A model generated the notes under the pieces. It searched no databases and had not been told where the DNA came from. It worked only from the letters and a program-made list of their open reading frames with translations. From positions 186,001 through 250,000 of the forward strand of contig NZ_JAUSNR010000002.1 of assembly GCF_030656345.1 (NCBI RefSeq): a DNA stretch of 64,000 bases, in the 5' to 3' direction. Origin of the DNA: Pseudotabrizicola sp. (lineage in GTDB: Bacteria > Pseudomonadota > Alphaproteobacteria > Rhodobacterales > Rhodobacteraceae). Positions 6,073 through 50,516 of this stretch are shown piece by piece. The first letter of the stretch is position 1, and each line of letters opens with the position of its first letter. The position numbers were made by a program, and so were the translations under genes.

Positions 6073-6119
6073 TTTCCACACAATAATATGATCAAAAAAC
6101 TGACAGACGAGGATAAGTG

Positions 6120-7487
6120 ATGCCGGGCAATCTGACGCTGGACGCTTTGCGCGAATTGGTGGACGCGGGCACTGTTGATACGGTTCTGGTGGCCGCTGTC
6201 GACATGCAGGGCCGCCTGATGGGTAAACGCTTTCACGCCGCGTTTTTCCTCGATGGCGGATACAAGGAAACCCATTGCTGCAACTACCTGCTGGCCGTCG
6301 ATATGGAGATGACCACGGTGCCGGGCTACAAATCCGCCGGGTGGGAGCAGGGCTACGGCGATTACATGATGAAGCCGGACCTGGAGACGATGCGTCTGGT
6401 TCCGTGGCTGCCCGGTACAGCGCTGGTGCTGGCCGATCTGATGGATCATTCGGGCAAAGAAGACATCACCGTCAGCCCCCGGGCCATTCTGAAACGTCAG
6501 GTCGCCCGCGCCCGCGCGCTGGGGTTTGAACCGATGATGGCAACCGAGCTGGAGTTCTACATTTTCGAGAACGCCTATGACGATCTGCGCGATGGCGGCC
6601 TTGCCCGGCTGAAGCCGATTTCCGGCTATAATGAAGATTACCACATTTTCCAGACCACCAAGGAAGAGGGCATGATGCGCGACCTGCGCAACGGCCTTTA
6701 TGCCGCCGGTATCCCGGTGGAAAACACCAAGGGTGAGGCAGATGCCGGCCAGCACGAGGTGAACTACCGCTATTCCGACGCGCTGGATACGGCGGACAAC
6801 CACATCATCGTCAAACAGGCGGTCAAGGATATCGCCTATGCCAAGGGCAAGTCGGTGACCTTCATGGCGAAGTATGATCACCGCAAGGCCGGTTCCTCCA
6901 GCCACGTGCACCAAAGCCTGTGGACCAAAGACGGCAAGCCGGTGTTCTATGACCACGACGACGCCAATGGCATGTCAGCCACCATGAAGCATTTCGTGGC
7001 CGGGCAGCTGGCCCATGCGCAGGAAATCACTGCCTTTCTGGCGCCTTACGTTAACAGCTACAAGCGCTTCACCATCGGTATGTTCGCCCCCACCAAGGCC
7101 GTGTGGAGCGCGGACAACCGCACCGCAGGCTTCCGCGTTTGCGGCGCGCATACCAAAGCCGTGCGCGTCGAATGCCGCATCCCGGGCAGTGACGTGAACC
7201 CCTACCTTGCCTGCGCCGCCTTGCTGGCTGCCGGGCTGGCCGGGATTGAGGGCAAGATGGAGCTGGAGCCTGAAATGAAAGGCGATATGTACACTGCCAA
7301 GGGCCTGCGGGAGATTCCGCACAACCTTCGCGAGGCGGCAGATCTGCTGGAGGCTTCGGCCATGCTGCGCGCGGCCTTTGGTGATGATGTGGTGGACCAC
7401 TACACTCACGCAGCCCGCTGGGAGATCGCCGAGACCGACCGCGTGGTGACAGATTTTGAATTGCAGCGCCTGCTGGAGCGGGCCTGA
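6120..7487 (+). CDS. Glutamine synthetase family protein (GS-like gamma-glutamyl-amide ligase)
   Basis: GS catalytic domain: FEPMMATELEFYIFE, EADAGQHEVNYRY, VTFMAKYDHRKAGSSSHVHQSLW, NRTAGFRVCG..VRVECRIPGSDVNPYLACAALLAAGLAGI. Linked to ALDH and ADH genes. Confidence 0.9.
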   Translation: MPGNLTLDALRELVDAGTVDTVLVAAVDMQGRLMGKRFHAAFFLDGGYKETHCCNYLLAVDMEMTTVPGYKSAGWEQGYGDYMMKPDLETMRLVPWLPGTALVLADLMDHSGKEDITVSPRAILKRQVARARALGFEPMMATELEFYIFENAYDDLRDGGLARLKPISGYNEDYHIFQTTKEEGMMRDLRNGLYAAGIPVENTKGEADAGQHEVNYRYSDALDTADNHIIVKQAVKDIAYAKGKSVTFMAKYDHRKAGSSSHVHQSLWTKDGKPVFYDHDDANGMSATMKHFVAGQLAHAQEITAFLAPYVNSYKRFTIGMFAPTKAVWSADNRTAGFRVCGAHTKAVRVECRIPGSDVNPYLACAALLAAGLAGIEGKMELEPEMKGDMYTAKGLREIPHNLREAADLLEASAMLRAAFGDDVVDHYTHAARWEIAETDRVVTDFELQRLLERA

Positions 7488-7514
7488 AAGCAGGGGTGAG
7501 CCCCGGACAAATGA

Positions 7515-7575
7515 GGTGGGGCGGGGGTCTCCCCGCCTGTGGTGCAAGGGATTGGCGGGGTAAACCCCGCCCTAC
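7515..7575. repeat. REP-like intergenic palindrome pair
   Basis: GGTGGGGCGGGGGTCTCCCCGCC (7515-7537) and GGCGGGGTAAACCCCGCCCTAC (7554-7575). Near-inverse copies of the units at 10141-10217. Confidence 0.65.
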
Positions 7576-7584
7576 GGAGATGAC

Positions 7585-8964
7585 ATGAAGCCCATCCAAC
7601 TGATTTCCCCGGTCGATGGCCGGGTCTATGCCGAGCGGATGCCGCTGACGCCTGACGCCGCGCAAGCCGCGGTCGCCCGCGCCCGCGCCGCGCAAAAGCC
7701 ATGGGCGGCACGGCCACTGGAAGAGCGTATCGCGCTGGTCAGGGCGGGCGTCGCCCGGCTCAACGAGATGAAAGACGTGATCGTCGAGGAACTCGCCTGG
7801 CAGATGGGCCGCCCGACCCGGTTCGGCGGCGAATTCGGCGGCGTGAACGCCCGCACCGATTACATGGCCGAAATCGCTGCCGAAACACTGGCCCCGAAGG
7901 TGGTCGAAGACAGCGACACCTTCCGCCGGTACCTCGCGCGTGAAGCTCTGGGCGTGGTGTTCATCATCGCGCCTTGGAACTACCCGTACCTGACCACCAT
8001 CAACACGCTGGTTCCCGCGCTGATCGCCGGGAACACCGTGGTGCTGAAACATGCCAGCCAGACCCTGCTGGTCGGCGAACGGCTGGCCGAGGCGTTCCAT
8101 GCTGCAGGCATCCCCGAAGATGTGTTCCAGAACATCGTGCTGGACCACGCCACGACGGAAGCCCTGATCAAGGGCCGCGCGTTTGATTTCATCAACTTCA
8201 CCGGCTCGGTCGCGGGCGGGCAGGCGATGGAACGGGCGGCGGCGGGCACGTTCACGCCCTTGGGGCTGGAATTGGGCGGCAAGGACCCCGGTTATGTGCG
8301 GGCCGATGCCAACCTCGATGCCGCTGTCGATACGCTGATGGACGGCGCGCTGTTCAACGCAGGCCAGTGCTGCTGCGGGATCGAGCGGATTTATGTGCAC
8401 GAGTCGCTCTATGATGCCTTCGTCGAAAAGGCCATCGCATGGACAAACACGCTGAAACTTGGCAATCCGTTTGAGGCGGACAGCACCATGGGGCCAATGG
8501 CCCACGCGCGCTTTGCCAAAGTCGTGCGCGATCAGGTGGCTGAGGCCATCGCCGCCGGGGCGAAACCACTGATCGACCCGGCGCATTTCCCCGCCGATGA
8601 TGGCGGTGCCTATCTGGCGCCGCAGGTGCTGGTGAACGTCGACCATTCGATGCGGGTGATGACGGAGGAATCCTTTGGCCCCGTCGTCGGCATCATGAAG
8701 GTCAAGGACGATGCCGAAGCCATCGCCCTGATGAACGACAGCCAATACGGCCTGACCGCCAGCATCTGGACCGAAGACTATGACACCGCCGCCGCCATTG
8801 GCGCGCAGATCGAAACCGGCACCATTTTCATGAACCGCGCCGATTACCTTGACCCGGCGCTGTGCTGGACCGGCTGCAAGAACACCGGGCGCGGCAGCTC
8901 GCTGTCCTATCTGGGTTTCCATTCGGTGACCCGCCCGAAATCCTATCACCTCAAGAAAGCTTGA
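7585..8964 (+). CDS. NAD(P)-dependent aldehyde dehydrogenase
   Basis: APWNYPY, FTGSVAGGQAMERAA, LELGGKDPGYV, FNAGQCCCGIERIYV, EESFGPVVGIMKV are ALDH superfamily motifs. Confidence 0.94.
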   Translation: MKPIQLISPVDGRVYAERMPLTPDAAQAAVARARAAQKPWAARPLEERIALVRAGVARLNEMKDVIVEELAWQMGRPTRFGGEFGGVNARTDYMAEIAAETLAPKVVEDSDTFRRYLAREALGVVFIIAPWNYPYLTTINTLVPALIAGNTVVLKHASQTLLVGERLAEAFHAAGIPEDVFQNIVLDHATTEALIKGRAFDFINFTGSVAGGQAMERAAAGTFTPLGLELGGKDPGYVRADANLDAAVDTLMDGALFNAGQCCCGIERIYVHESLYDAFVEKAIAWTNTLKLGNPFEADSTMGPMAHARFAKVVRDQVAEAIAAGAKPLIDPAHFPADDGGAYLAPQVLVNVDHSMRVMTEESFGPVVGIMKVKDDAEAIALMNDSQYGLTASIWTEDYDTAAAIGAQIETGTIFMNRADYLDPALCWTGCKNTGRGSSLSYLGFHSVTRPKSYHLKKA

Positions 8965-41185: not shown

Positions 41186-42691
41186 ATGCTGACTGGCAAG
41201 CACCTTATCGCGGGCGACTGGGTTTCGGGGGCGACGACCTTTGCCTCGACCCCGGCCCATGGCCCCTCGCATGACTTTGGCGTCGGCACGCCTGCATTGG
41301 TTGATCAGGCCTGTGAGGCGGCGGAAGCGGCCTTCCCGTCATTTGCCGCCACCTCGCGCGACGACCGCGCGCGGTTCCTTGAAGCGATTGCCGATGAGAT
41401 TGAGGCGCGCGGCGATGCGATCACCGAGATCGGCACGCAGGAAACCGGCCTTCCGGCTGCGCGTCTGCAAGGCGAGCGGGGGCGGACCACCGGCCAGTTG
41501 CGGCTGTTCGCGTCGCATATCCGTGACGGGGCCTATCTCGACCGCCGCCACGACAAGGCGCTGCCCGACCGTCAGCCGCTGCCGCGCCCGGATCTGAAGA
41601 TGATCCAGCGTCCGATTGGCCCGGTCGCGGTGTTCGGGGCGTCGAACTTCCCGCTGGCGTTCTCGGTCGCCGGGGGCGACACTGCTTCGGCGCTGGCGGC
41701 GGGTTGCCCGGTGGTGGTCAAGGGCCATTCGGCCCATCCGGGCACGGGCGAGATCGTGGCGCAGGCGATTGATGCGGCGCGCAAATCCTGCAACCTGCAT
41801 CCGGGCGTGTTCTCTCTGGTACAGGGCGGCAAGCGCGATGTGGGCGAGGCGCTGGTGCAGCAACCGCTGATCCGCGCGGTGGGATTCACCGGATCACTGG
41901 GTGGGGGGCGTGCGCTCTATGACCTGTGCGCTGCGCGGCCCGATCCGATTCCGTTCTTTGGCGAATTGGGCAGTGTGAACCCGATGTTCCTGCTGCCTGC
42001 CGCGCTGTCAGCGCGCGGAGAGGCGTTGGGCAAGGGCTGGGCTGGCAGCCTGACCATGGGGGCGGGGCAGTTCTGCACCAACCCCGGCATTGCCGTGGTG
42101 ATTGACGGGCCGGATGCCGATGCCTTCGCCATTGCCGCCAAGGCGGCGCTGGAGCCGGTGGCGGCGCAGACCATGCTGACCGATGGTATGGCTGATGCCT
42201 ACCGTTCGGGCCGCGACCGGGTGGCGGCGGGCACCGGGGTGCGCAGCCTGCTGACCACGATGTGCGATGGCCGCGCTGCCACGCCGAACCTGTTCGAGGT
42301 GTCGGGCACCGACTGGCTGGCCGATCATATGCTGGCGGAAGAAGTGTTCGGCCCGCTGGGCCTGATCATCCGCGTGCAGGACGCGGCAGAGATGGAGGCG
42401 ATTGCCGCCAGCCTGCAGGGCCAGCTGACCTGCACCCTGCATCTGGATGATGGCGACACCGATTTGGGCCGCACCCTGCTGCCAATCCTTGACCGCAAGG
42501 CGGGGCGCGTTTTGGCCAACGGCTTCCCCACCGGGGTAGAGGTGGCGGATGCCATGGTGCATGGCGGGCCGTACCCGGCCAGCACCAACTTTGGGGCCAC
42601 GTCGGTCGGCACGCTGTCGATCCGCCGCTGGCTGCGCCCGGTCTGCTATCAGAACCTGCCGGACGCTTTGCTGCCCGAAGATCTGCGCTAA
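41186..42691 (+). CDS. Aldehyde dehydrogenase (candidate alpha-ketoglutarate semialdehyde dehydrogenase)
   Basis: FGASNFPLAFSVAGGDTASALAAGCPVVVKGHSAHPGTGEI, VGFTGSLGGGRALYDL, FFGELGSVNPMFLLPAAL, MGAGQFCTNPGI; KGSADH-type ALDH motifs. Confidence 0.92.
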   Translation: MLTGKHLIAGDWVSGATTFASTPAHGPSHDFGVGTPALVDQACEAAEAAFPSFAATSRDDRARFLEAIADEIEARGDAITEIGTQETGLPAARLQGERGRTTGQLRLFASHIRDGAYLDRRHDKALPDRQPLPRPDLKMIQRPIGPVAVFGASNFPLAFSVAGGDTASALAAGCPVVVKGHSAHPGTGEIVAQAIDAARKSCNLHPGVFSLVQGGKRDVGEALVQQPLIRAVGFTGSLGGGRALYDLCAARPDPIPFFGELGSVNPMFLLPAALSARGEALGKGWAGSLTMGAGQFCTNPGIAVVIDGPDADAFAIAAKAALEPVAAQTMLTDGMADAYRSGRDRVAAGTGVRSLLTTMCDGRAATPNLFEVSGTDWLADHMLAEEVFGPLGLIIRVQDAAEMEAIAASLQGQLTCTLHLDDGDTDLGRTLLPILDRKAGRVLANGFPTGVEVADAMVHGGPYPASTNFGATSVGTLSIRRWLRPVCYQNLPDALLPEDLR

Positions 42692-43572
42692 GCGGTAATC
42701 TCTTCAATATCAACGCTGTGGCTGCCGGACTGACGTCCGTCCAGCCGCAGCCGCCCGGTTACCGGGGCCACATCGTCGTAATCGCGGCCAAAGCCGACGT
42801 CGATGTGGTCGGTGCGGGCAAAGCAGGCGTTTGTGGGGTCGTAATCGACCCAGCCCATTTCCTCACCCGCCCAGGCGCGGACCCATGCGTGCATGGCATC
42901 GGCCCCGACCAGCCGGGGTTTGCCCGGCGGCGGCAGGGTGCGCAGATATCCCCCGACATAGGCGGCAGGTATGCCGATGGCGCGCAACCCTCCCACCATG
43001 ATCTGCGCGAAATCCTGACAGACGCCGCGGCCCTGCACAAAGGCATCTTCGGGCGTGGTGTTGACGCTGGTGGCCTTGGAATCAAAGGTCATGTGGTTGT
43101 GCAGTGCAAAGCCCAGTTTTTCCACCATATCGCGGGCAGTGCTTTGGTCTGACCGCAGATCCTGCGCAAAGGCGGCGATGCGGGGCGTGGCTGCGATGCG
43201 GCGCGAGGGCCGCGTAAAGTGGTGCGGCGCGCGCGGGCCGACAGTGCGATGCGCCGCCAGCTCGACCGCCAGCCCCGACAGGGATGGCGACAGGTCGAGC
43301 AAAGCGTCATCGGCAAGACGTTCGACCACCGAATGCATGGTCAGGTCCAGACTGATCAGGCCGGGGGGCATGGCAGCCTCTATCACCGATGTGCCGAAGA
43401 AATCGCGGAATTCGCCCCGCTCGCCGACCTCGGGCTGAAACGCATAGCCGGATTCGCGCACCTTTTGCCGCCCCGGAATATTGGCGGGCAGGATGCGGAA
43501 CAGCTGCCGCCCCGCGCCGGTGGGGCGGGCGAAATCATAGCGTATGGACTGGCGCACGGCGTACAGCGTCAC
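42688..43572 (-). CDS. Transglutaminase-like domain protein
   Basis: Cys/His/Asp triad context: VQGRGVCQDFAQIMVGGLRAIGIPAAYVGGYL ... DAMHAWVRAWAGEEMGWVDYDPTNACFARTDHIDVGFGRDYDDVAPVTG; N-terminal region typical of bacterial transglutaminase family. Confidence 0.93.
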   Translation of the reverse strand: MTLYAVRQSIRYDFARPTGAGRQLFRILPANIPGRQKVRESGYAFQPEVGERGEFRDFFGTSVIEAAMPPGLISLDLTMHSVVERLADDALLDLSPSLSGLAVELAAHRTVGPRAPHHFTRPSRRIAATPRIAAFAQDLRSDQSTARDMVEKLGFALHNHMTFDSKATSVNTTPEDAFVQGRGVCQDFAQIMVGGLRAIGIPAAYVGGYLRTLPPPGKPRLVGADAMHAWVRAWAGEEMGWVDYDPTNACFARTDHIDVGFGRDYDDVAPVTGRLRLDGRQSGSHSVDIEEITA

Positions 43573-45980
43573 CGCAAGTATGCCTCGGTCAGCTGATCAG
43601 AAATGATGGCGATCTTGCCATGCAGGTCGTTCAGCGCTGCGGTGGTCAGCGTATCGGGCGTGGCGGTGGCGATATCGACCTGACAGCGCAGCAGCGTGCG
43701 GCCCAGATCTGACAGCTGGCCATGGGTGGCCGCACCCGGCAGGGCCTGCACCTGCTCGCTCAGTCCGTCGAACAGATGGCGCAGCGAGCGCGGGTTCATC
43801 GGGTCCAGCGCCAGCAGGTCGATCACGGTTTCCCGGGTCGACCCCACGCTGAAGCGGCGGCGGTGGGTCAGCACGGAATCGCCCAGTTCGATGCACAGAT
43901 CAAGACCCCCGGCTGCCGCCCTGGCATCGGCAAAGGCGACCAGCGCGCCGGTCATGCTAGACGCGCGTTCCAGCTGGCGCCCGATCGACAGAAAGCGCCA
44001 GCCGAAAAAGCGGTACATGTTTTCATGCACCAGACCGGAAAACCCCGCCAGTTTGCGCAACAGCGCCGACAGGGCGCGGGCGGCATCATCGCCGGGGGTG
44101 ACCTTGCCGGCCATGCGGCGGGCGGTCTTGTCCAGATCGTTCAGCGCCGACCAGCCATCGGGGGAAAAGCGGTCGCGCACCTGCCCGGCGGTGGCCACCG
44201 CCGCGCCCAGCGTATCGAGCAAGCCCGGCGACAGGCCGACCGTGCCATCAACGCTGTAACCCTTGAGCACCGCATCCATCTGTTTTTGCAGCGGCAGGGC
44301 GGCGCGCCCGCCTTCGGCCAGCCGGATGTGGCGCGCGCGCAGCAGGCGGATGATGCCTTCGGTGCGTTCGACATAGCGGCCCAGCCAGTACAGATTGTCC
44401 GCCGCCCGCGTCGGCAGCGCCCCGGGGACAGAGCGGCGGTAGATCGTATCTGCCGGGGCCACCATGCTGACCGAGGGGACTTCATCCTTGCTGACGATCC
44501 AGACATCCGCCGCACTGCCGCCGCGCTGCATCGCCAGTGCGGTCGGGTCGGTCGAGGCACCGATGCGGGCAAAGCCGCCCTGCATCACCTGCCAGCCCGA
44601 GGGCGTGCGGGCCAGAAACACCCGCAGGCTCATCGGGCGGGGCACGATCTTGCCGCCGATCAGTGCCGGGGTGGTGGACAGGGTGACAGCCTCTTGCGCG
44701 ACCAGTTCCGGGCCTTCCAGCGCCAGCCGCTCTGCTAGCTCTTCCGGGGTCAGGGTTGCGGCGGGGGTGCTTTCGCCCTGCCGGTCAAAGGGCAGCCCGG
44801 TGCCAAGCGCGGATGACAGCACCAGACGGGCGCGGGCGGTCATCACCTGCGCGCGTTCAGCCGGACTGCCGCACCACCATGTGGCAATATTGGGAATCGC
44901 CAGCTTTGCCCCGGTCAGATGCAGCGAGAGTTTGGGCAAAAACGCCATCAGCGCCCGGGTTTCCAGCACGCCGGACCCCAGCGAATTCACCATGGTCAGC
45001 CCGCCCTGCCGCAGCACATTCACCATGCCGGGCGTGCCGATGCGTGAGGCGGGGTCCAGTTCCAGCGGGTCGGCGTAGCTGCCATCCAGCCGCCGCCACA
45101 GCACATCCAGCGACCGCAGACCTGACACGGTGCGCACCATCAGCCGCCCATCAGATACGGTCAGGTCTTCGCCCTGCACAAGGCTGACGCCCATGTAGCG
45201 CGCGATCCACGCCTGCTCGAAATAGGTTTCGTTCAGCGGGCCGGGGGTCAGGATGGCGACCCGGCCATCGCGTGCGCCGCGCAGTCCCAGCAGGGCATCG
45301 CGGAACTCGCGGAAAAAGGCGGCAAGGCGGTGAATGTTCTGCCCGGAGAACACATCGTTGAAGGCGCGTGAGGTGGCGACCCTGTTTTCCAGCGCATAAC
45401 CCGCACCTGACGGGGCCTGCGTGCGGTCGGCCAGTACCCACCAGCGCCCGTCAGGCCCGCGCCCGATTTCGAACGCCACGAAATGCAGAAAATGGCCAGA
45501 GGCCGGGCGCACCCCGACCAAAGGCCGCAGCCATTCCGGGTTGCCCGCAACCAGCGCTGCGGGCAGATGCCCGTCGGCCACCAGCCGGTTGGCGCCATAA
45601 AGATCCGCCATCACCTGTTCCAGCAGATCGGCGCGCTGGATCAGCGCCGGGGTCAGCTCGGCCCAGTCAGATTCATCGATCAACACCGGCACATGGCTCA
45701 GCGGCCACGGGCGTTCGACCGACTGGCCAGAGCCGTATTGCCGGTAGAACACCCCCGAATCGCGCAGATACTGATCGGCCCGGCCGGTGGCGCGGGTCAG
45801 CCCTTCGTCGGTCAGGCTTTGCAGATGGTCGATCAGCGGCTGCCACAGGGGGCGCAACGTGCCGTCTGCCGTCACCAGCTCATCCGGAACGCCCGGCAAG
45901 GCGCGGTATGCCGACAAGCCGCGATCGCGCGTCTTGCCGGTGCCTGCCGGTTTCTGTTTGTCCGTCCCTGCGCTGTCCAT
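43569..45980 (-). CDS. Fused circularly permuted ATP-grasp + alpha-E domain protein
   Basis: 803 aa. N-terminal CP-ATP-grasp (DSGVFYRQYGSGQSVERPWPLSHVPVLI...VAILTPGPLNETYFEQAWIARYMGVSLVQGEDLTV...RRLDGSYADPLEL). C-terminal alpha-E (RAADNLYWLGRYVERTEGIIRLLRARH...FGWRFLSIGRQLERASSM). Confidence 0.92.
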   Translation of the reverse strand: MDSAGTDKQKPAGTGKTRDRGLSAYRALPGVPDELVTADGTLRPLWQPLIDHLQSLTDEGLTRATGRADQYLRDSGVFYRQYGSGQSVERPWPLSHVPVLIDESDWAELTPALIQRADLLEQVMADLYGANRLVADGHLPAALVAGNPEWLRPLVGVRPASGHFLHFVAFEIGRGPDGRWWVLADRTQAPSGAGYALENRVATSRAFNDVFSGQNIHRLAAFFREFRDALLGLRGARDGRVAILTPGPLNETYFEQAWIARYMGVSLVQGEDLTVSDGRLMVRTVSGLRSLDVLWRRLDGSYADPLELDPASRIGTPGMVNVLRQGGLTMVNSLGSGVLETRALMAFLPKLSLHLTGAKLAIPNIATWWCGSPAERAQVMTARARLVLSSALGTGLPFDRQGESTPAATLTPEELAERLALEGPELVAQEAVTLSTTPALIGGKIVPRPMSLRVFLARTPSGWQVMQGGFARIGASTDPTALAMQRGGSAADVWIVSKDEVPSVSMVAPADTIYRRSVPGALPTRAADNLYWLGRYVERTEGIIRLLRARHIRLAEGGRAALPLQKQMDAVLKGYSVDGTVGLSPGLLDTLGAAVATAGQVRDRFSPDGWSALNDLDKTARRMAGKVTPGDDAARALSALLRKLAGFSGLVHENMYRFFGWRFLSIGRQLERASSMTGALVAFADARAAAGGLDLCIELGDSVLTHRRRFSVGSTRETVIDLLALDPMNPRSLRHLFDGLSEQVQALPGAATHGQLSDLGRTLLRCQVDIATATPDTLTTAALNDLHGKIAIISDQLTEAYLR

Positions 45981-45987
45981 CGGGGGA

Positions 45988-48900
45988 CTAGAGCCCTATG
46001 GGACGCCTCAGGTCAAGCGTCAGCGGGAATTCCCGGTGGGCGCGTTCGGCAACCGGGCGCGGATGATGGCCGGGGCGGTGGCCGCTGGCCTCGAACCGAG
46101 CCAGACGGCGCGCTTCGGCCTCGTTGCCATTCACGGGGAAGGTGTCGTAATTGCGCCCGCCCGGATGCGCGACGTGATAGACGCAGCCGCCAAGCGGGCG
46201 TGCCGACCATGTGTCGTAGATGTCAAAGGTCAGCGGCGCATCGACCGGCAGCACCGGATGAATTGCGGAAGACGGCTGCCACGCCTTATACCGCAGGCCC
46301 GCCACAGCCTCACCAGCGCCGACACCGGTCAACGGCATCATGCGGCCATTGCACAGCACCTGATAGCGGGACGGGTCGGGCGCGGTCAGCTTGACCTGCA
46401 ACCGCTCGGTCGAGCTGTCAGTGTAGCGCACGGTGCCGCCGATGGCCCCGGTCTCCCCCAGCACATGCCAGGGTTCCAGCGCCTGACGCAGTTCCAGATG
46501 CACGCCTTCGTATTCGACCTCGCCGCAGAACGGGAAGCGGAACTCGGCCTGCGCCTTGAACCAGTCTTCATCCAGCGCAAAGCCGTGCTGCGCCAGATCA
46601 GCCAGCACGTCGCGGAAATCCTGCCAGACATGATGCGGCAGCATGAAACGGTCATGCAAAGCGGTGCCCCAGCGGGTCATTTCACCCTGCGCCGGTGTGG
46701 CCCAGAACCGGGCAATCAGCGCGCGGATCAGCAGTTGTTGCGACAGGCTCATGCGCGGGTCCGGCGGCATCTCAAACCCGCGGAACTCGACCAGACCAAG
46801 GCGCCCGGTGGGTCCATCGGGTGAGAACAGCTTGTCGATGCAGATCTCGGCCCGGTGGGTGTTGCCGGTCACGTCGGTCAGCATGTTGCGAAGCAGACGG
46901 TCCACCAGCCATGGCATTGGGGCTGCGCCTTGCCCGGGGGCGGGGATCTGGGCAAGTGCGATTTCCATCTCATACAGCGCGTCATGCCGCGCCTCATCCA
47001 TGCGCGGGGCCTGTGACGTGGGCCCGATGAACAGGCCCGAGAACAGGTAGGACAGCGACGGATGCCGGTTCCAGTGCAGGATCAGACTGCGCAACAGGTC
47101 CGGCCGGCGCAGGAAGGGGCTGTCGTTCGGCGTGGCCCCGCCGACCACCACATGGTTGCCGCCCCCCGTGCCCGCGTGCTTGCCGTCGATCATGAACTTG
47201 TCGGCCCCAAGGCGACATTGCCGCGCCTCTTCATACACCGCGGATGTGATATCCACGCAATCCTGCCAGCTGTGAGCCGGATGCACGTTCACCTCGATCA
47301 CCCCCGGATCGGGGGCGACGCGGATGACGTTCAGGCGCGGGTCATGCGGCGGGGCGTAGCCTTCGATATGGACCTGAAGCCCCAGCTTCTTCGCCGCCTC
47401 TTCCGCCGCGCGGACCAGGTCGAGGTAGTCCTCAACGGAGACCACCGGCGGCATGAACACGCATAGCCGCCCGTCGCGCGGTTCCACTGACAGGGCGGTG
47501 CGGATGTGGCCATCCAGTTCAGCCTCGCCGGTGCCCTGTTCGATCTGAGCGCCCTGCGCCCCGCCAGCGGTAAAGCTGGCTGAGGCCTGCGGGCGCTGTT
47601 CTGTCACCTCCGGGGCATTGGGAACCGGCAGCGGTGCGCGGTCAACAGTGGGATCAGTCGGGTTGATATAGGGGTATTGCGAGGGTGGCAGCCATGGCAG
47701 GCTTTCCAGGGGCAGGCGGTAGCCGACCGGGCTGTCGCCGGGCACCAGGAACATATGTCCGCGCCGCAGCTTCCACTTTTCCGTGCGCCAACGCCGCCCG
47801 GATGCCTGGCTTTGCCAGCTTTGCACCGGCAGCACAAAGCCCGACGGGTTGGTCAGGCCCCGGTTGAACACGGTGGCAAGACGGTGACGTTCTTCGGGGT
47901 CCTTCAGCTTGGAATTGGCGGGCGTCACGTTGTCGGGCAGGTTCGCCTCTTTGACCAGCCATTGCGCCGGGTCTTCATAGGCGGGTACGATGCAATCGGC
48001 CTCCAGCGCCAGATCCTCGGCGATCTGTGCCAGCAAACGCTGGGCATCCTCTGTGGTCACCCCAGTCTGCGCGCCCTCTTCGGCGATCAAGGCGGGGTCG
48101 GACCAGATCGGCTGACCATCGGTGCGCCAGTACAGCGAAAACGTCCAGCGTGGCAGGGTTTCGCCGGGATACCATTTGCCCTGCCCGTAATGCAAAAACC
48201 CGCCCGGCGCAAAACGGTCGCGCAGGCGGCGGATCAACTGGTCGGCCAGCACGCGCTTGGTGGGGCCGACGGCGGCGGTGTTCCACTCTTCGGCCTCGAA
48301 ATCATCAATCGACACAAAGGTCGGCTCGCCGCCCATGGTCAGCCGCACATCGCCTGCGTCCAGCGCGGCATCCACCTTTTGCCCCAGCGCGTTCAGCTGA
48401 TCCCATGCATCATCGCTGAACGGTTTGGTAATGCGCGGATGTTCGGCCACGCGGGCGACCGTCATGTCAAAGGCGAAATCGACCTCTGCGTAACTCGCCA
48501 TGCCGGAAATGGGGGCGGCGTTGCGGTAATGCGGGGTGGCGGCCAGCGGAATATGGCTTTCCCCGGCCAATAGGCCGCTGGTCGGGTCAAGGCCCACCCA
48601 GCCCGCACCGGGCAGATACACCTCGCACCATGCGTGCAGATCGGTGAAGTCCACTTCCGTGCCCGAAGGACCGTCCAGCGCTTTCAGATCCGGTTTCAGC
48701 TGGATCAGATAGCCCGATACAAACCGCGCCGCAAAACCCAGATGCCGCAGTGCCTGCACCAATAGCCAACTGGAATCGCGGCATGACCCGCTTTGCACGC
48801 CCAGCGTTTCCTCGGGCGTCTGCACGCCGGGTTCCATGCGGATGGTGTAGCGCAGGGTGTTCGCCACCATCGCGTTCAGGTTCACCACGAAATCCACGCT

Positions 48901-49320
48901 GCGGATGCGGTCTTTCGGCACCGTTTCCAGAAACGCCTGCAACAATGGCCCCGCCGGTTCCTTGCGGCGGTAGATTTCCAGATCCTCCGTCAGATCTGCC
49001 GGATACTCGAACGGCCATGTTTCCGCCGCTTCTTCTACGAAAAAGTCGAACGGGTTGTAGATCGCCATATCGGCGACCAGATCAACCTCGATCTTGAACT
49101 CGCGCACGGGTTCGGGAAACACGAAGCGCGCCATCCAGTTGCCGAACGGGTCCTGCTGGTGGTTCACGAAATGCCCGCCCGGACTGACCTTCAGCGAATG
49201 CGAGATCACCCGGGTCCGACTGTGCGGGGCAGGACGCAGGCGGATCACCTGCGGCCCCAGCGTGACCGGACGGTCGTATTTGTAATGCGTCAGGTGGTGA
49301 ATCGCGGCCTTGATCGACAT
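45988..49320 (-). CDS. Transglutaminase family protein fused to DUF2126 (putative amidoligase), 1110 aa
   Basis: N-terminal transglutaminase ([33 protein letters not shown]...[41 protein letters not shown]). C-terminal DUF2126 with [66 protein letters not shown]. Confidence 0.94.
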
Positions 49321-49610
49321 GGGATACTTCTCGTGAGGTCAGGTTCTGAATAGCAGCAGGCAGGGCTCAGATGGCAATATAGGACTTTATGGCACGATTG
49401 CCGCATTACTGTTGCACAAAACCCGATCGTTTCCAAAATCACTGCGCGGAGTTTGGGCAAAAGCGGAACCCTAAGGTGTTGAGATCTGTTTCCCTTTTCG
49501 GAACGGTGCATGGGAATTCCCCGGATAGGACGCACATCTGCCGCGATCCTGCCCGATTTCAGGATCAATACCATCTGACACACCCGTATTGCTGCCTGCT
49601 GGGGAATAAA

Positions 49611-50516
49611 ATGGACCGACTGACTGAAATGGAAGCCTTTGCCACGGTCGTAGACCAGGGCGGCTTCACGGATGCGGCAAAAAAGATGGGCATTTCCAAA
49701 TCTGCCGTGTCAAAGCATGTGTCGGCACTGGAGGCGCGGCTTGGCGCGCGGCTGCTGAACCGGACGACCCGGCGCGTCAGCCCGACCGAGATCGGCCTTG
49801 CCTATTATGACCGCGCCCGCCGGGTTCTGAATGATGCCGGAGAGGCGGACGCGCTGGTCACTTCCATGCAGTCGGCCCCGTCAGGATTGTTGCGCATCAG
49901 CGTGGCAACCGATTTCGGGGTCAATCTGTTGTCGCCGATTCTGGGCGACTTCCTGCTGGAATACCCCGATATCACCGTGAACATGGTGCTGAACAACCGC
50001 TATGTGGAACTGATCAGCGAAGGCTTTGACATGGCGATCCGCGTGGGAGAGCTGGAAGACAGCTCCTTACGCGCCCGCAAACTGACCGATACCACCAAGC
50101 GGATGATCGCATCCCCAAGCTATTTCCAGCGCTATGGCCGCCCGCTGAAAATCGATGACCTGAACGAACACAAGCTGCTGCACTATTCCAATCAGGCCAA
50201 CGGCAATGTGTGGAAGATCACGGCACCCTCGGGGGAAAAGCGGCAGGTGCGCACTGCGGGTTGGTTGACGGTGAATGACGGGCAATCGCTGCTGAATGCA
50301 GCGATTTCCGGTCTTGGAATCGCCTATCTGCCCAGCTTTCTGTACGCTGATGCGATGAAGGCCGGCCAGATCGAAGAGGCTTTGCCGGGTCTGCCGACCG
50401 AAGTGCTTGGTATCTATGCCGTGTACCCGCCGGGCCGCTTTACCCAGCCCAAGGTGCGGGCCTTCATCGATTTTCTGGCTCGCCGCTATTCCGACAAGGG
50501 CCCTGATAAGTGGTGA
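49611..50516 (+). CDS. LysR family transcriptional regulator
   Basis: MDRLTEMEAFATVVDQGGFTDAAKKMGISKSAVSKHVSALEARLGARLLNRTTRRVSPTEIG (LysR HTH) and LysR substrate domain. Divergent from the amidoligase cluster. Confidence 0.93.
   Translation: MDRLTEMEAFATVVDQGGFTDAAKKMGISKSAVSKHVSALEARLGARLLNRTTRRVSPTEIGLAYYDRARRVLNDAGEADALVTSMQSAPSGLLRISVATDFGVNLLSPILGDFLLEYPDITVNMVLNNRYVELISEGFDMAIRVGELEDSSLRARKLTDTTKRMIASPSYFQRYGRPLKIDDLNEHKLLHYSNQANGNVWKITAPSGEKRQVRTAGWLTVNDGQSLLNAAISGLGIAYLPSFLYADAMKAGQIEEALPGLPTEVLGIYAVYPPGRFTQPKVRAFIDFLARRYSDKGPDKW

Follow-up and report, generated by a model that had tools for sequence, protein, structure and literature searches.

The window analysed here is a 64,000-nt stretch of a Pseudotabrizicola sp. 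contig, and the feature of interest is an operon of three closely spaced minus-strand genes. The first (45988..49320) encodes a 1110-aa protein, TG-DUF2126, in which Pfam recognises Bact_transglu_N, Transglut_core (8e-16) and DUF2126 (PF09899; E=0), the last at 1330 bits against a cut-off of 27 and spanning positions 3-826 of an 826-position profile. After a gap of 7 nt, the second gene (43569..45980) encodes an 803-aa fusion of a circularly permuted ATP-grasp (CP_ATPgrasp_2, PF14403; 3e-126) with Alpha-E (PF04168; 3e-51), both above cut-off, and it overlaps by 4 nt the third (42688..43572, GTG start), which encodes a 294-aa stand-alone transglutaminase-like protein (Bact_transglu_N and Transglut_core, 6e-19, above cut-off). 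NCBIfam returned zero families for all three proteins at E 0.001. The first-pass annotation had described three close minus-strand genes with these domains, and the coordinates, the shared direction and the profile matches all agree with it.

The region upstream of the operon (49321..49610, minus strand) separates it from a divergent LysR regulator gene (49611-50516), which was matched in only 6 of 80 related loci and therefore does not belong to the conserved system. A phage origin for the operon was considered and rejected, the single weak match being confined to the transglutaminase part. Elsewhere in the window (6117-8964), 3' of TRAP transporter genes, a gene for a glutamine-synthetase-like protein is followed by one for an aldehyde dehydrogenase; this pair is possibly involved in amine or polyamine use.

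A common gene set with earlier predictions

A scan of genome contigs recovered at least 596 relatives of TG-DUF2126, and the loci of 80 of these were examined. The full triad (TG-DUF2126, then ATP-grasp/Alpha-E, then transglutaminase) was found in the same order and on one strand in 71 of the 80, all from other genomes, and with the order complete in so many loci the arrangement is not a matter of chance. Four further loci end at a contig edge within the second gene, and five have TG-DUF2126 without a fused gene nearby. DUF2126 is present in 29 of 190 alphaproteobacterial genomes and in 84 of 299 genomes of Pseudomonadota; the operon is a typical representative of a large, common family. Furthermore, a stand-alone Alpha-E and a second, lower-scoring Alpha-E copy are found together in 13 of 16 genomes of the host's genus (10 of 10 high-quality ones), and in almost every genome having both, the reading frame that contains the second copy is about 805-820 aa long. 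The presence of two copies across the genus argues against the window contig belonging to the 7.8% contamination of the assembly.

The gene set has been the subject of earlier predictions. A fusion of a transglutaminase to a GS-like carboxylate-amine ligase, the Rv2566 type of Mycobacterium tuberculosis, was described in 2008 (PMC2588565). Like the window protein, it has a transglutaminase-like domain joined to a putative ligase domain of this kind, and the likeness to this actinobacterial fusion is drawn from the published description (PMC2588565). Genes for Alpha-E, circularly permuted ATP-grasp and transglutaminase, often accompanied by Anbu, form a predicted peptide synthesis/modification system in Iyer et al. 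2009, as cited in PMC3597751, PMC6376114 and PMC5666114. The gene set is widespread in bacteria, and the making or breaking of unusual amide bonds by its products has been predicted since 2008-2009. The first-pass annotation had called the system undescribed; its domains and their association are published predictions (PMC2588565, PMC3597751, PMC6376114, PMC5666114). As presented by the citing papers, the system of Iyer et al. 2009, with its GS-like ligase, is built of identical domain families, whereas the window cluster is without Anbu, is led by the DUF2126 fusion and has an ATP-grasp that is degenerate and fused to Alpha-E. A Burkholderia cenocepacia cluster (I35_5080-5083 / BCAM1233-1236; PMC5491218) likewise combines DUF404/407 (ATP-grasp), DUF403 (Alpha-E), a transglutaminase-like protein and a large transglutaminase-like protein, but there ATP-grasp and Alpha-E are separate proteins. 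What is new, relative to Iyer et al. 2009 as known through those papers, is that the ATP-grasp module of this operon is, by its sequence, a conserved pseudo-enzyme.

The transglutaminase and DUF2126 domains

The first-pass annotation held the transglutaminase triads to be intact, and this was confirmed on a wider scale. The N-terminal transglutaminase-like domain of TG-DUF2126 has C180, H229 and D245, and the Cys-His-Asp motif (PF01841) is present in 72/72 stand-alone transglutaminases and 78/83 TG-DUF2126 proteins. The stand-alone protein has PDB relatives (6g49, 3isr), and PDB sequence searches with TG-DUF2126 gave matches to the transglutaminase part only, none to DUF2126.

Several DUF2126 residues, E332, E653, E676, N722-H723, E845 and R847 among others, are near-invariant in 112 TG-DUF2126 homologues. 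Motifs resembling those of GS are near-invariant in the same set, and three of them are paired with GS motifs in the top-scoring profile alignments, which are not significant against either the GS or the GCS2 profile. In Foldseek searches with a poor structure model of TG-DUF2126 (pLDDT 68.5), transglutaminases ranked first and were followed by many glutamine synthetases at E 0.03-0.4. Taken together with the published assignment (PMC2588565), the motifs and the weak fold matches suggest that DUF2126 is likely to be an active GS-like ligase.

Such a ligase could in principle act on proteins, with DUF2126 attaching a peptide tag and either Anbu or the transglutaminases removing it, in the manner of Pup. 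The Pup ligase and DUF2126 were assigned to one carboxylate-amine ligase superfamily (PMC2588565), and a tagging role has been proposed for the Anbu operon (PMC6376114). We nonetheless consider this distinctly unlikely: a Pup-like small ORF is not reported beside such genes (PMC2588565), and Anbu was inactive on the peptide substrates tried (PMC6376114, PMC5666114). In addition, our search of related loci for further genes conserved next to the triad, which covered ORFs of at least 150 aa and hence a size range above small tags, found none, since the next largest clusters were antisense ORFs over the operon genes and then Rhizobiaceae-only synteny.

The ATP-grasp module of the fused protein

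The 803-aa protein consists of the ATP-grasp (approximately aa 33-496) and Alpha-E (aa 522-802). Its structure model (pLDDT 86.9) has 3n6x as its best fold match (TM 0.84 by target length), which is also the only match to the ATP-grasp part in PDB sequence searches, and further fold matches include glutathione synthetase and E. coli GspS with Mg and ADP (2io8). The fold is therefore one that the N-terminal part has in common with GspS/glutathione synthetase proteins (3n6x, 2io8, 2hgs). Profiles of the fused and the stand-alone ATP-grasp forms aligned over 474 columns in hhalign (probability 100%, E 2e-77). On this basis we could compare 100 unique fused proteins with 38 unique stand-alone ones, in all of which 21 motif positions are intact (one record is gapped at the last three).

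By analogy with GspS, E196 and N198 of the stand-alone form are assigned to a predicted Mg site, and K404 and the Gly-rich loop (SGGYG) to a predicted ATP site. None of the 100 fused proteins keeps the E196 equivalent, and in place of N198 99 of them have Arg and the remaining one has His. K404 is kept in 6 and D183 in 30, nearly every sequence has lost the SGGYG loop, and R311, R312, D314 and R466 are retained. The window protein has lost the equivalents of E196, N198, K404 and SGGYG; at the aligned positions it reads FEIGRGPDGRWWVLADRTQAPSG, compared with IDLVRTGPDEFFVLEDNCRTPSG in the intact paralogue. The same A-D-R-T-Q pattern is seen in a fused protein from the actinobacterium Tsukamurella; the site is intact in stand-alone copies from Deinococcota and Bacillota. 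Among 136 near-invariant stand-alone columns, 0/13 of those assigned to ATP or Mg are kept in the fused proteins as against 62/123 of the others, with a p value (2e-4) that is indicative only because the 13 columns were assigned after the alignment had been seen.

In GspS, the D, E and N of a spaced signature bind Mg. Alignment of the stand-alone ATP-grasp profile with the GSP_synth profile was not significant, and this signature (D-x12-E-x-N-xx-TP[ST]) was used instead, giving a check that is independent of the fused/stand-alone alignment. It was found in 18/18 GSP_synth sequences, 31/39 stand-alone proteins, 0/105 fused hits (including 4 antisense or spurious ORFs left out of the unique set) and 0/2880 shuffles. 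The D-x12-E-x-N metal signature of GspS-type proteins is thus missing from the fused family.

These losses do not look like decay. The fused ATP-grasp part has a dN/dS of approximately 0.10-0.25, indicating maintenance by purifying selection. A quick tree parts the fused from the stand-alone forms along one branch with a support of 100. Within the pocket of the window protein, R296, R297, D299, D304, Q429 and R453 are kept. The ER motifs of Alpha-E are also present (R535, E538, R539, R545, E671, R672, P730 and R731), at positions conserved in 36-38 of 38 stand-alone Alpha-E proteins. The Alpha-E part of the model (m5d46369f4dd3) has a weak fold match, possibly by chance, to the nitrate-responsive helical protein NasR (4akk, E 0.025).

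The fused ATP-grasp is, judged from the sequences, degenerate throughout its family. The first-pass annotation had counted two amide-forming modules in the cluster and had itself named degenerate ATP/metal-binding residues as the observation that would speak against this; the predicted residues are lost both in the window protein and across the fused family. With the ATP-grasp module a predicted pseudo-enzyme, the cluster is left with one likely ligase rather than two, and TG-DUF2126 is likely to be the only plausible candidate. A self-contained pathway, in which the fused ATP-grasp works through an altered site and two amide bonds are formed in succession by it and DUF2126, would account for a domain that is conserved, under selection and folded like 3n6x, glutathione synthetase and GspS, and the D183 and K404 equivalents that persist in 30 and 6 of the 100 sequences fit with it. 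Against this is the loss of the Mg-site Glu and Asn equivalents from all 100 and of the Gly-rich loop from nearly all, and we regard such a pathway as very unlikely. As a point against the pseudo-ligase reading, pseudokinases provide precedent for degenerate sites that can still bind nucleotide. Because the MgATP residues are lost while the remaining pocket and the Alpha-E motifs are kept, we propose a substrate-holding or coupling role for the fused protein.

A second, intact set and a probable link to nitrogen limitation

The window cluster has no Anbu gene. A canonical Anbu operon (CP-ATP-grasp, Alpha-E, transglutaminase and Anbu, minus strand) is located elsewhere in the host genome, on contig C49 (71156-75718; 8154-13046 of locus L006), and its ATP-grasp site is intact. 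A stand-alone ATP-grasp accompanies DUF2126 in 27 of 29 alphaproteobacterial genomes (p 4e-12, a value that, like other co-occurrence p values, overstates the independent evidence because the genomes are not phylogenetically independent). The two genomes without a full copy are 84% complete in one case and 74% complete, with a partial copy, in the other. Stand-alone ATP-grasp was also present in 54/54 genomes with an Anbu-like protein, a set in which some of the weaker matches (E 1e-17 to 1e-31) may be proteasome homologues other than Anbu.

Physical linkage is less frequent, with DUF2126 lying within 20 kb of a stand-alone ATP-grasp or Anbu in 7/29 genomes. At one locus (L013) the Anbu operon adjoins the DUF2126 cluster, and at two others (L045, L087) Anbu-type genes neighbour TG-DUF2126 and no fused gene was found. 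An Enterobacter roggenkampii plasmid (p1_120063, IncFII; L158 5597-14794) carries a five-gene row near arsC and an IS6 transposase, consisting of an intact ATP-grasp, Alpha-E, TG-DUF2126, fused ATP-grasp-Alpha-E and transglutaminase, with no Anbu. The fused protein occurs without DUF2126 in 5/27 genomes, and the two are therefore not obligate partners. On a Tsukamurella plasmid (L231 4995-8377), a fused degenerate ATP-grasp-Alpha-E and a transglutaminase lie between aspS and alaS without DUF2126.

The first-pass annotation had joined the three genes into one dedicated pathway; the genome nearly always holds a second ATP-grasp/Alpha-E set as well, which is intact and in most cases includes Anbu. 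What stands of that interpretation is the domains, the operon and the transglutaminase triads, and what falls is an undescribed system with two ligases in a self-contained three-gene pathway. The window cluster probably cooperates with the intact set of contig C49. Published work on Anbu speaks against such a link, since no complex was detectable among co-expressed Anbu-operon proteins (PMC6376114), and PMC5666114 argues that Anbu is a protease and not part of peptide synthesis.

Precedent for nitrogen control comes from other bacteria. In Burkholderia, paralogous genes respond to nitrogen limitation via NtrC/sigma-54 (PMC5491218), in P. putida PP_2685 and PP_2688 are induced under this condition (log2FC 4.4 and 4.0; PMC8050072), and earlier data on such a response are cited in passages of PMC5666114 and PMC6376114. 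Control by NtrC/sigma-54 was shown for the B. cenocepacia cluster (PMC5491218) and not for the window operon. We recognised no sigma-54 or NtrC site upstream of the window operon (49321..49610), and neither the sigma-54 nor the full NtrC consensus was enriched over shuffles in 86 regions upstream of DUF2126 operons; given this, we infer nitrogen control here by homology.

Two observations from related loci touch on regulation. On an Acidithiobacillus caldus plasmid (L159 843-15435), a DUF2126 cluster with an intact ATP-grasp and an Alpha-E is preceded, a few kb upstream, by ntrC and glnL; TG-DUF2126 is matched there in two segments spread over 4.7 kb, which suggests an interrupted gene. A TGCATTGCACA box is common to approximately 20 Rhizobiaceae loci (L038, L042 and L064, for example), where it precedes the TG-DUF2126 start by about 68 nt, and is found neither in the window nor in most Rhodobacterales. 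It may be a regulator site or may just reflect shared ancestry.

Induction of paralogous genes by nitrogen limitation (PMC8050072, PMC5491218) would also be expected if the system scavenged nitrogen, with the transglutaminase-like domains deamidating or hydrolysing proteins during starvation, Anbu acting as a protease and the ligases recapturing freed amines. The intact Cys-His-Asp motifs are consistent with this, as is the hypothesis, discussed in PMC6376114, that transglutaminase reactions release ammonia. A conserved 830-residue DUF2126 domain and a retained pseudo-ATP-grasp would be left unexplained, and we think scavenging unlikely.

We favor a model, which we put at about an even chance of being correct, in which the operon is an accessory, DUF2126-type arm of the Anbu/Alpha-E amide-ligation system, with TG-DUF2126 its sole active ligase and the fused protein a pseudo-ligase. 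TG-DUF2126 would use ATP in its glutamine-synthetase-like domain to activate a carboxylate, which would then be joined to an amine; cleavage or transfer of the (iso)peptide or amide so formed would fall to the transglutaminases, both the domain within TG-DUF2126 and the stand-alone protein. The fused protein, its use of MgATP lost, would serve as a scaffold or specificity subunit, holding substrate or coupling DUF2126 to the intact ATP-grasp/Alpha-E/Anbu set elsewhere. The pathway would probably serve nitrogen limitation, by turning over amide nitrogen held in peptides or proteins or by storing it there. More tentatively, and falling somewhat short of an even chance, the fused proteins may constitute an ancient, widespread pseudo-ligase family, spanning Pseudomonadota, Acidobacteriota and Actinomycetota, that couples the DUF2126 ligase to the intact ATP-grasp in a regulatory or substrate-holding capacity within one peptide-modification pathway for nitrogen limitation.

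A large share of Proteobacteria carry this system, and a conserved pseudo-enzyme together with an accompanying intact set narrows the biochemical targets. The candidate catalysts would be DUF2126 and the stand-alone ATP-grasp, with the fused protein as their putative partner and nitrogen limitation as the condition under which to look.
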